Positions 35,731-38,775 of a DNA stretch of 64,000 bases are shown here, piece after piece. The DNA is from Herbidospora yilanensis. Lineage in GTDB: Bacteria > Actinomycetota > Actinomycetes > Streptosporangiales > Streptosporangiaceae. The position numbers and the translations under genes are program-made. The number at the start of each line of letters is the position of its first letter. The stretch's first letter is position 1. Location of the stretch: NCBI RefSeq assembly GCF_001570565.1, contig NZ_BBXE01000018.1, forward strand, positions 215,022-279,021, in the 5' to 3' direction. The notes below the pieces were generated by a model. The model did no database searches, was not told where the DNA came from, and worked only from the letters and a program-made list of their open reading frames with translations.

Positions 35731-36936
35731 TCACCACAACCCGGTCCCCCGTCGCGAGGTGATCTCCCCGATCCTCCCGAGCGCCTCCCCCACCGGCAGG
35801 GCGGCGGGCTTGCGCCCGTCGCGAAGGCGGATGGACACCTCACCGGCCGCCGCCTCCCGGGCCCCGACGATCAACTGGTACGGCACGAGCCGCGCCTCCC
35901 GGATCCGCGCCCCCAGGCTGCCCCTCCCGGGCCCCGCGAGCTCCGCGCGCAGCCCGAGGCCGGCACACCGCGAGACCACCGCCCCGGCATAGGCCACCTC
36001 GTCCTCCCCCAGCGGCAGCACCGCCACCTGCACCGGCGCGAGCCAGGCCGGGAACGCGCCGCCGTGCACCTCGATCAGGTGGGCGACGGCCCGCTCCACG
36101 CTGCCGACGATGCTCCGGTGGACCATGACCGGCCGGTGCCGGGCCCCGTCGGCGCCGGTGTACTCCAGGCCGAACCGGGCGGGCTGGTAGAGATCGATCT
36201 GGACGGTCGACAGGGTCGACTCCCGCCCGAGGTTGTCGGCGATCTGAATGTCGATCTTCGGCCCGTAGAACGCGGCCTCGCCCTCGACGGCCTCGTACTC
36301 CACGTCGTGGAGCACCTCCCGCAGCATCTCGCCCGCGCGCTCCCAGAGGCCGGGGACGGCGACGTACTTCCCGGAGGAGCCCGGCAGCGACAGGCGGTGG
36401 CGCACCGGCTTGACGCCCATGGCCGCGTGGGCGGCGGCGATCAGTTCGAGGGCCGCGCGGGCCTCCTCGACGGCCTGGTCGGCGGTGCAGAAGATGTGCG
36501 CGTCGTTGAGCTGGATGGCCCGGACGCGGGTCAGCCCGCCCAGCACGCCCGACGGCTCCGACCGGTACATCCCGCCGAGTTCGGCCAGCCGGAGCGGCAG
36601 GTCGCGGTAGCTGCGCCCGCGTGACCGGTAGATCAGCGCGTGGTGCGGGCACAGGCTGGGCCGCAGGACCACCTGCTCCTCGCCGACCGACATCGGCGGG
36701 TACATGTCGTCCCGGTAGTGGTCCCAGTGGCCGGAGATCTCGTAGAGCTCGCGCTTGCCCATGATCGGTGAGTAGACGTGCCGGTAGCCGTTGCGTCTCT
36801 CGACGTCGCGGACGTAGTCCTCCAGCGCCATCCGGACCGCCGCGCCGTCGGGCAACCAGAAGGGCAACCCCGCGCCGATGAGCGGATCGCCGTCGAACAG
36901 GTCGAGTTCACGGCCGAGTCTGCGGTGGTCGTACAC
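35731..36936 (-). CDS. thrS: Compact threonyl-tRNA synthetase lacking editing domain
   Basis: A 401-residue class II synthetase containing only the catalytic core and anticodon-binding domain of ThrRS. Motifs: GLPFWLPDGAAVRMALEDYV, YSPIMGKRELYEISGHWDHYRDDMYPP, RPSLCPHHALIYRSRGRSYRDLPLRLAELGGMYRSEPSG (zinc-ligand Cys and motif 2), VHRSIVGSVERAVAHLIE (motif 3). The usual N-terminal TGS and editing domains (about 240 residues) are missing, because the GTG start at 36936, with AAGGGAGA upstream, opens directly into the core. A full-length ThrRS is presumably coded elsewhere. The gene is preceded by a Thr-rich leader peptide and alternative hairpins. Confidence 0.9.
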   Translation of the reverse strand: MYDHRRLGRELDLFDGDPLIGAGLPFWLPDGAAVRMALEDYVRDVERRNGYRHVYSPIMGKRELYEISGHWDHYRDDMYPPMSVGEEQVVLRPSLCPHHALIYRSRGRSYRDLPLRLAELGGMYRSEPSGVLGGLTRVRAIQLNDAHIFCTADQAVEEARAALELIAAAHAAMGVKPVRHRLSLPGSSGKYVAVPGLWERAGEMLREVLHDVEYEAVEGEAAFYGPKIDIQIADNLGRESTLSTVQIDLYQPARFGLEYTGADGARHRPVMVHRSIVGSVERAVAHLIEVHGGAFPAWLAPVQVAVLPLGEDEVAYAGAVVSRCAGLGLRAELAGPGRGSLGARIREARLVPYQLIVGAREAAAGEVSIRLRDGRKPAALPVGEALGRIGEITSRRGTGLW

Positions 36937-36975
36937 GATGCGTCTCCCTTGGTGAGAAAGGGGCGCACACGACAC

Positions 36976-37006
36976 CGAAGCCCGGGGCGGTGCGCCCCGG
37001 GCTTCG
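36976..37006 (-). terminator. Attenuator terminator hairpin upstream of thrS
   Basis: A perfect 13-bp stem, CGAAGCCCGGGGC with GCCCCGGGCTTCG, around a five-base loop, 40 bases upstream of the thrS start codon. It lacks a T tract, as many actinobacterial terminators do. Its 5' arm (on the minus strand) overlaps the region that can pair with the end of the leader peptide sequence, making terminator and antiterminator exclusive. Confidence 0.78.
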
Positions 37007-37020
37007 AAGTAAGGCAGTGG

Positions 37021-37071
37021 TCAGCGCGCCGGGACGGAGTCCGGCGTCGTCGTCAGATGGGCGCGCTGCAT
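37021..37071 (-). CDS. Thr-codon leader peptide (thrS leader)
   Basis: A 16-residue leader peptide MQRAHLTTTPDSVPAR followed by TGA, with three consecutive ACG Thr codons (37053-37045). It is too short to be called as a normal gene. No ribosome-binding site precedes it; a -10-like box six bases upstream suggests the mRNA starts at or next to the ATG (leaderless). Its position, Thr codons and overlap with alternative hairpins identify it as an attenuation peptide for the downstream threonyl-tRNA synthetase gene. Confidence 0.75.
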   Translation of the reverse strand: MQRAHLTTTPDSVPAR

Positions 37072-37101
37072 ACCCGAACGCTAACACACGGAAGGTCCCC
37101 G

Positions 37102-37900: not shown

Positions 37901-38713
37901 TCAGGAGAGCATCTCCTTCAGGGAACGGGCGAAGAATCCGGGGGCCTCGAGCTCGGTGTCGAGGTAGAGGAACGGCTCGGTGAGCTCCAGCTCGATCAGC
38001 ACCGGCTCGCCGCCGGGCATGCGCACGAGGTCGACCCGGGCGTAGAGGAGCGGCTCGGCCACCTTGCCCAGGATCTCCTCGGCCAGGTCGAACTGGTCGT
38101 CGTCGGGGTCGCGCAGGGTGGCCTTGGCCCCGGCGTCGTTGAGGTCGCCGATGCCGGGGATCAGCAGCGGGGTGCGCCGGACGGCGTGGCTGAACTGGCC
38201 GTTGAAGTAGTGGAGCGACAACTCGCCCTCGTGTTCGACGCTCTCGACGTAGGGCTGCACCATGATCGGCCGGCCCTGGGCCTCAAGGGAGGCGGCGAAC
38301 GCCGCGGCCTCCTCGGCGGAGGTGGTGCGGATGGTGTCGCGGGCCCCGGCGGAGACGGTCGGCTTGACGACGTATTCGGGCCAGTCGGGCAGGGCCAGCG
38401 AGCTCCAGTGGGTCGGCACGGTCGGCACGCCCAGGTGCTTCAGGTAGGTCTTGTCGGTGTTCCAGGCCAGCACCGACGCCGGGTTGAGCAGCCGGGTGTG
38501 CTGTTCGGCCCGCCAGGCCCAGTCGATGAACTCGTCGCGCCGGCCGACGTAGTCCCACGGTGAGCGGACCACGGCCGCGTCGAACTCCGACCAGTCGGCC
38601 TCGGGGTCGTCCCACCGGACGGGTGCGCCCTCGATCCCCTCGGCTAGCCACGCCGAGAGCACGGTCTCGCGTTCCGGATCGGGCCCGTCCCAGGTGACAT
38701 ACGCGGCCTTCAT
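37901..38713 (-). CDS. ATP-grasp domain protein
   Basis: A 270-residue protein with an ATP-grasp-like layout: an N-terminal Rossmann-like part (KAAYVTWDGPDPERETVLSAWLAE, AAVVRSPWDYVGRRDEFIDWA), a central NTDKTYLKHLGVPTVPTHW and EYVVKPTVSAGARDT typical of the nucleotide-binding lobe, and ARVDLVRMPGGEPVLIELELTEPFLYL with metal-binding acidic residues. Members ligate a carboxylate to an amine or similar nucleophile, often making small peptides such as glutathione-like compounds. I chose the ATG at 38713 because AAGGGGA lies six bases upstream; an ATG two codons earlier is too close. It is not clustered with biosynthetic genes. Confidence 0.8.
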   Translation of the reverse strand: MKAAYVTWDGPDPERETVLSAWLAEGIEGAPVRWDDPEADWSEFDAAVVRSPWDYVGRRDEFIDWAWRAEQHTRLLNPASVLAWNTDKTYLKHLGVPTVPTHWSSLALPDWPEYVVKPTVSAGARDTIRTTSAEEAAAFAASLEAQGRPIMVQPYVESVEHEGELSLHYFNGQFSHAVRRTPLLIPGIGDLNDAGAKATLRDPDDDQFDLAEEILGKVAEPLLYARVDLVRMPGGEPVLIELELTEPFLYLDTELEAPGFFARSLKEMLS

Positions 38714-38775
38714 CGACATTCCCCTTGCATGTGCGGCATGACGTACAAGAACCCATCATGGCCGCAACGCGCGAC

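Follow-up and report, generated by a model that had tools for sequence, protein, structure and literature searches.

A conserved threonine-codon leader peptide ahead of an accessory threonyl-tRNA synthetase gene that nearly lacks the leader's own codon

Introduction

Proteobacterial attenuators, such as those of E. coli thr, leu, and pheST, combine a short leader ORF, regulatory codons, and mutually exclusive RNA helices. Leader peptides also precede aminoacyl-tRNA synthetase genes in actinobacteria: a 2005 survey predicted attenuators for trpS and leuS in Streptomyces, and the available portions of that survey report that threonine operons have no conserved RNA structure ahead of them (PMC1262725). 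The excerpts available from another study of actinobacterial leaders do not name thrS (PMC4833913). The closest described system is that of Streptomyces lividans TK24, for which a 2021 study gives a leader, thrL (MKRVRPFLETTPGFVPAR*), ahead of thrS (PMC8079986). In the available text of that study, thrL and thrS take up one paragraph and one table row; the mRNA is leaderless, the hairpin before thrS has no U-run, and termination is unclear. Actinobacterial leaders without a clear terminator appear more generally in the accessible parts of PMC8079986 and PMC1262725.

A theory of starvation-sensitive codons, building on earlier work, was given by Elf and Ehrenberg in 2005, and their paper, in the part available, counts selective charging as verified for the isoacceptors of Thr, Leu, and Arg (PMC1183508). 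Bias at the level of amino acids has been reported for biosynthetic enzymes, as far as the accessible sections go (PMC4209129).

Here we describe a locus in a 64-kb stretch of Herbidospora yilanensis DNA (the window), in which a leader with three Thr codons precedes a threonyl-tRNA synthetase (ThrRS) gene that we call thrS2. The locus is like thrL-thrS of S. lividans in its leader, its leaderless start, and its hairpin without a U-run, with three Thr codons in place of the two in thrL; it is like Streptomyces trpS and leuS in being a synthetase gene behind a leader peptide, with Thr in place of Trp or Leu. A Thr attenuator reading of a thrS leader is thus not new as such, and the original prediction, made in unawareness of any such description for thrS in actinobacteria, is preceded by the brief description of 2021. 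Conservation, alternative helices, the anti-SD hairpin, and codon use, which are untreated in the available thrL section, are all addressed here. Compared with E. coli thr, leu, and pheST, this locus has a leaderless leader mRNA, no U-run terminator, a hairpin over the ribosome site, and a leader codon that is near-totally banned from the gene. This near-ban, for which no earlier report was found in the open-licence literature, appears to be the new element and is our strongest result; the theory of selective charging was developed for E. coli leaders, whereas here one codon is almost fully partitioned between leader and gene.

The leader and thrS2

All elements of the locus lie on the minus strand (Table 1), and the observation behind the original prediction is real. 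The 16-codon ORF with its ACG codons is present, as is TAGCGT six bases ahead of the ATG. The perfect pairing proposed between the first and last leader codons is found over 9 nt between CAGCGCGCC and GGCGCGCTG (37030–37022), and the segment after the Thr codons, CGTCCCGG (37036–37029), is complementary to CCGGGGCG (37000–36993) of the hairpin arm, as had been proposed. Two measurements change slightly: the short spacer before thrS2 is 84 nt to the GTG (36936) rather than 85, and the hairpin, previously given as a perfect 13-bp stem at 36976–37006, extends to 15 bp. No Rfam model, T-box models included, matches the 64-kb window at gathering scores, and a T-box or other known riboswitch was rejected on this basis. 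No NCBIfam model was found for the leader peptide (four 20-residue relatives).

Table 1. Coordinates of the features of the thrS2 locus in the window.
Feature	Position	Strand	Remarks
-10 box TAGCGT	37078..37083	(-)	transcription expected to begin on leader ATG
Leader ORF MQRAHLTTTPDSVPAR*	37021..37071	(-)	16 codons; read from sequence
Putative sensor, three ACG Thr codons	37045..37053	(-)	within leader ORF
Segment 1, CAGCGCGCC	37060..37068	(-)	partner: segment 2
Segment 2 (CGTCCCGG / GGCGCGCTG)	37022..37036	(-)	alternative partners: segment 1 or hairpin 5' arm
P2 hairpin, 15 bp (one T-G end pair), loop CAC, no U-run behind	36975..37007	(-)	sequence and folding
GGGGCGCAC, P2 5'-arm top and loop	36990..36998	(-)	complementary to 36960-36968
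GTGCGCCCC, downstream arm	36960..36968	(-)	alternative partner for P2 top and loop
Small hairpin CCCTT/AAGGG over thrS2 ribosome-binding site AAGGGAG	36944..36962	(-)	sequence
thrS2, 401-residue ThrRS, catalytic and anticodon domains only	35731..36936	(-)	Thr codons ACC 7, ACG 0

The gene behind the leader encodes a ThrRS, as predicted, with a score of 431.5 against TIGR00418 (threonyl-tRNA synthetase; cut-off, 383.65). Domain matches of the product are limited to the catalytic and anticodon domains, the editing domains being absent, and almost the entire product aligns with solved structures of two-domain ThrRS constructs. Its motifs LCPHH, NDAHIF, and MVHRSIVGS line up with their counterparts in ThrRSs of solved structure, and we take these conserved cysteine and histidine motifs to supply zinc ligands. 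The same genome has a second, full-size ThrRS (668-residue frame, 45% identical to the thrS2 product). The original prediction therefore needs the qualification that thrS2 is, as judged from sequence, an accessory short ThrRS and not the housekeeping enzyme. In B. subtilis a second ThrRS gene, thrZ, is reportedly expressed conditionally under T-box control, unlike thrS2 with its leader peptide. Anabaena likewise has a second, conditionally expressed ThrRS (also named thrS2) beside the housekeeping one, subject to Zur repression and not to a leader peptide in the available account (PMC4787780).

Among 200 genomes of the order, 82 have thrS2 (E 1e-130 or better), a minimum, since at least one more (G444) misses this threshold because its match is split. 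In genome G556, thrS2 is broken after about codon 32 (L356, G556:C26:80300-83800); the break is followed by a gene with a resolvase domain, and the remainder of thrS2 (L145) lies about 20 kb from the severed start; in G576 (L143), thrS2 starts near codon 25. This part of thrS2 may be an attachment site for serine-recombinase elements.

Conservation of the leader

A TTTP leader occurs in 81 of 81 loci (the window and 80 relatives), with Thr codons ACGACGACG in 79 and ACTACGACG in 2, and this conservation excludes a chance origin of the leader. In the 3' half of the leader, GTC-CCG-GCG-CGC-TGA, each codon is identical in 79–80 of the 81. At synonymous positions the VPAR codons and the stop hardly vary, so the RNA is conserved and not the peptide alone. 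Counts were not taken from the MAFFT leader alignment, which holds 76 of the 81 rows, with five leaders omitted.

The wider set comprised 168 thrS2 genes at 62% identity or more, 155 of them distinct. The leader is in place at 153 of these 155, and its Thr codons are ACGACGACG in 149 (that is, ACG-ACG-ACG in 149/155), ACTACGACG in 2, ACCACGACG in 1, and ACG-AGG-ACG in 1; the last, L142, has the peptide T-R-T, read from its sequence. The two genes without a leader are the truncated ones mentioned above: L145 has none beside it, the leader being about 20 kb off, and for L143 the leader pattern was not found genome-wide within 3 mismatches. The leader ends of G416 (L136) and L025 are frame-shifted. 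The check proposed with the original prediction, for a leader ORF with Thr codons in relatives, thus came out in its favor.

Searched with up to three mismatches, the leader pattern is present in 86 of the 200 genomes, as against 0 for the reversed control. Eighty of the 86 also have a thrS2 match, and in 79 the pattern adjoins it; in G556 it lies on the severed start of thrS2. The remaining six are G444, with a split protein match to thrS2; G571, G582, and G478, with thrS2 remnants at the pattern match (tblastn); G441, with a remnant recognized by reading of the sequence where tblastn gave no match; and G555, which is unrelated. In the remnant of G478 (L358, G478:C1:3034500-3038000), the leader has decayed to ACA-ACG-ATG and the hairpin is shortened; this locus offers a natural control in which constraint has been lost.

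The analysis also covered nine loci that are more distant and fall outside the thrS2 class. Five of these (L089, L090, L092, L093, and L095; 45–54% identical) have different leader peptides that still carry ACG runs, followed, as judged by eye, by a GC-rich hairpin. In L094 the frame is broken and an ACC-ACG-ACG leader is doubtful. A TTT leader was looked for in L091, L096, and L098 and is absent; some of these may be housekeeping ThrRSs.

RNA helices and the ribosome-binding site

The helix between segments 1 and 2 (1:2) has at least 8 bp in 132 of 149 leaders. Stem conservation, another check that had been proposed, is therefore seen for 1:2, with slight compensatory evidence because segment 2 is nearly invariant. 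Pairing of segment 2 with the hairpin 5' arm (2:3) reaches at least 8 bp in 106 of 149 leaders and 4–6 bp in 32 of 149; one large genus, together with some others, shows weak pairing. P2 has at least 8 bp in 149 of 152 leaders, while L052, L139, and L144 have no contiguous 8-bp P2. A U-run after P2 was not found, the 8 nt behind it containing no more than three T in 128 of 149 leaders. The hairpin proposed as a terminator is thus present with a conserved stem but lacks the U-run, and because this terminator feature is missing we assign the locus only to the class of leader-peptide attenuators, and not to the classical terminator type. Characteristic of that class are its short ORF with consecutive cognate codons (in predicted translation) and its 1:2 helix.

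Of 200 shuffled sequences, 199 fold less well than the 116-nt leader itself (z -3.27). Equilibrium folding of 148 sequences at four ribosome positions gave mean probabilities of 0.978–0.992 for P2 and 0.294–0.299 for opening of the ribosome site throughout; for the window alone, opening increased from 0.05 to 0.13–0.14 on stalling. As both quantities are near constant across all four ribosome states of the set, an equilibrium switch is not supported, and any switch would have to act during transcription or use pairings beyond the reach of the folding program. Antitermination by segment 2, as originally proposed, retains the 2:3 pairing potential but finds no counterpart in equilibrium folding.

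The original prediction had passed over the ribosome-site hairpin, which has equivalents in many relatives (by eye, uncounted), and a complementarity between the P2 loop and the stretch downstream. The top and loop of P2 are complementary to the downstream stretch over 9–11 nt in 99 of 149 leaders, five stem bases being counted. For the 75 loops other than GAGT, the mean complementarity is 7.05 nt, compared with 5.82 (sd 0.12) for shuffled partners, and 0 of 300 shuffles reach 7.05 nt, in a control that ignores kinship. Loop positions 1–4 form standard pairs in 123, 109, 120, and 106 of 123 tetraloop rows, respectively; the downstream arm was chosen by a rule blind to the loop, and 26 of the 149 rows were omitted (no arm found, or a loop of other than four bases). 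Lying next to a ribosome-site hairpin, this complementarity suggests that translation is one level of control.

The locus might even be a purely translational switch, in which P2 and the ribosome-site hairpin hold thrS2 off, a transcription stop plays no part, and leader stalling lets GGGGCNNNNG of the P2 top pair with CNNNNGCC of the downstream arm, freeing the ribosome site. The missing U-run and the loop complementarity both fit this reading, as does the position of this 9-bp helix in the window, which takes in bases of both P2 and the anti-SD arm. The excess over shuffled partners is weakened by kinship, however: on the tree, independent changes are few (1–4 pairs per test), and none of the tests reaches 0.05. 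Changes at loop positions 1–3 are nearly all consistent with pairing, and opposite cases arise in a few of 200 random pairings, but at position 4 (loop G tested; the main variation is T/C) only opposite changes or none were seen. Linker length does not track stem length (rho 0.02), so that the expected pseudoknot geometry is rejected, and the ribosome site does not open in equilibrium folding, a model that excludes pseudoknots. We regard a switch acting on translation only as possible but lean against it.

Promoter and WblC-type sites

The motif TANNNT is found at -13 from the leader ATG in 117 and at -12 in 27 of 152 leaders. With the motif so placed in 144 of 152, the mRNA should start on the leader ATG itself, which agrees with the leaderless mRNA of the original prediction and with the leaderless start given for S. 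lividans thrL in the available text (PMC8079986).

Promoters of the WblC regulon are defined by GAAAWY 3 nt upstream of the -35 element. This WblC-type site occurs at a fixed position, -46/-45, in 38 of 152 leaders; in the window, read by eye, there is no exact GAAAWY at -46/-45. A gene named thrS2 is listed among WblC-activated genes of S. coelicolor in the accessible portion of PMC7157823, presumably the same gene as thrS2 here. Both observations could be taken to mean that the leader senses general translation stress, as caused by antibiotics, and not Thr, with WblC as the regulator and the Thr codons of little account. Against this, ACG-ACG-ACG is near-invariant across genera, and ACG runs recur in the five distant loci outside the class. 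The sites lie upstream of the promoter, where they are compatible with attenuation, and the window has no exact site. We therefore consider a general stress sensor improbable; the fixed GAAAWY sites suggest that antibiotic stress and Thr attenuation act jointly.

Codon usage in thrS2 and leuS

The most striking feature of thrS2, which lay outside the original prediction, is avoidance of ACG in its body. Thr codons in the 155 thrS2 bodies are ACC (1456), ACT (27), ACG (7), and ACA (1). ACG is thus 7 of 1491 Thr codons (95% upper limit 0.0096, with codons treated as independent though the genes are related), and 150 of the 155 bodies are free of it. The seven exceptions are confined to five genes, all of which keep an ACG leader. 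Out of frame, the ACG trinucleotide is common in thrS2 (3286 and 602 occurrences in the two other frames), so the ban acts on the codon. Thr occupies 103 alignment columns, 86 of these in at most 15 genes, and the ban is therefore met at many sites.

ACG is less scarce in genes around thrS2 and elsewhere in the order. Its share is 0.332 of 4412 Thr codons in 233 flanking ORFs (3/218 of those with at least 8 Thr are ACG-free), 174/591 (29%) in thrC, and 225/1039 (22%) in EF-Tu, with 0 of 30 genes ACG-free for each of the latter two. In housekeeping thrS, represented by its C-terminal part only (aligned start to stop), ACG is 54/379 (14%), and 7 of 29 genes are ACG-free. At the neighbor, EF-Tu, and housekeeping thrS rates, 6.8, 20.0, and 40.3 of the 155 thrS2 genes, respectively, would be expected to be ACG-free, versus the 150 seen.

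Such avoidance might stem from ordinary selection on translation, favoring ACC in a gene that is well expressed and having nothing to do with the leader, and housekeeping thrS and EF-Tu do fall below the 33% of neighbors. EF-Tu, which is very highly expressed, nonetheless keeps ACG in every gene of the sample. Nor are other four-fold families in thrS2 comparably skewed: third-base G in 80 loci is 0.58 for Pro, 0.37 for Ala, 0.43 for Val, 0.37 for Ser, and 0.64 for Leu, ordinary values near those of flanking ORFs. Translational selection is hence an unlikely source of the ban, although part of the ACG scarcity is general to ThrRS genes, as housekeeping thrS is ACG-poor too. In the distant genes, ACG is 4/56 in the bodies of the five with leaders and 3/14, 15/23, and 5/19 (together 23/56) in the leaderless L091, L096, and L098.

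Three of the 39 ORFs in the window have no ACG: thrS2, a nusA-like ORF (1212-2213), and an ORF at 37901-38719 (-) that resembles DcsG (D-cycloserine synthetase family, score below cut-off) and has 15 Thr codons. The last was considered as a second reserved-codon gene and rejected because its orthologues use ACG (5/16 in L008 and L010).

The genome has one tRNA-Thr gene each with anticodons GGU, CGU, and UGU (57 tRNA matches, one unreadable). ACC and ACU are read by tRNA-Thr GGU; the leader, with ACG, and the gene, with ACC and ACU, therefore split the isoacceptors between them. Each Thr isoacceptor has a single gene and ACC is the codon used most, so gene number by itself gives no reason to expect ACG to be the codon sensitive to starvation.

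A weaker parallel is seen in leuS. Among 30 leuS loci of the order, eight have a leader (L209, L210, L215, L222, L226, L228, L230, and L231), in which LLL is coded CTG-CTT-CTT or CTG-CTG-CTT, and twenty have none by search, L213, with a chance-looking LL ORF, being scored as without one. Two divergent loci, L236 and L237, were omitted (leaders CTGCTCCTT; CUY 6/70 and 5/66). The share of CUC and CUU (CUY) is 29/520 in leuS with a leader versus 278/1247 without (Mann-Whitney p 2.6e-6, too small a value, as the genes are related), in the direction expected if the leader's codon is kept from the gene; the leaders also hold CTG, the main codon of their genes. The CUY shares of other genes in leuS-leader genomes and in the others, 0.398 and 0.552 for thrC, 0.531 and 0.474 for EF-Tu, and 0.308 and 0.232 for housekeeping thrS, differ in direction, so no consistent genome effect underlies the scarcity in leuS (control without G397, G399, and G401).

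Proposed mechanism and implications

We propose, with a probability of roughly two thirds, that the locus is a ribosome-mediated Thr attenuator on an accessory, stress-type ThrRS, with codon use split between switch and gene. The conservation of the leader and its Thr codons supports this reading well, and the sequences further show which codons the leader uses, that ACG is nearly banned from the gene, that 1:2 and P2 can form, and how the -10 box is spaced. The mRNA would begin at the leader ATG. When the ACG-reading Thr-tRNA is uncharged, the first ribosome would stall on ACG-ACG-ACG, over segment 1, leaving segment 2 free to disturb P2 during its synthesis, and thrS2 would be expressed. With fast reading of ACG, 1:2 and P2 would form and expression would be low, through loss of RNA polymerase, the ribosome-site hairpin, or both. 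As the thrS2 body is nearly all ACC and ACU, the enzyme could be made while the ACG-reading tRNA is empty. Stalling, the direction of the response, the layer at which it acts, and the isoacceptor that is depleted are the steps that we infer.

More tentatively, and at somewhat short of an even chance, the leader may report on the ACG-reading tRNA-Thr while the gene is restricted to codons read by the isoacceptor that remains charged, a "starvation dialect". The same rule would apply to leuS, with CUU in the leader and CUY depleted in the gene, and perhaps to other leader-controlled synthetases. In a bolder form, the signal would be selective loss or inactivation of tRNA-Thr(CGU) and not Thr shortage as such.

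The thrS2 family offers a natural and very strong case that synonymous codons differ in their sensitivity to starvation and that cells exploit the difference, one codon being set aside for the sensor and almost excluded from the gene under its control. Because of the reserved codon, a switch of a known type can serve as a sharp test of selective charging, and directly so in actinomycetes. The same feature also suggests a route, from sequence only, to starvation-regulated genes and the isoacceptors that they sense. Finally, the locus suggests that the spare ThrRS is an enzyme for stress conditions, with relevance to natural ThrRS inhibitors such as borrelidin.
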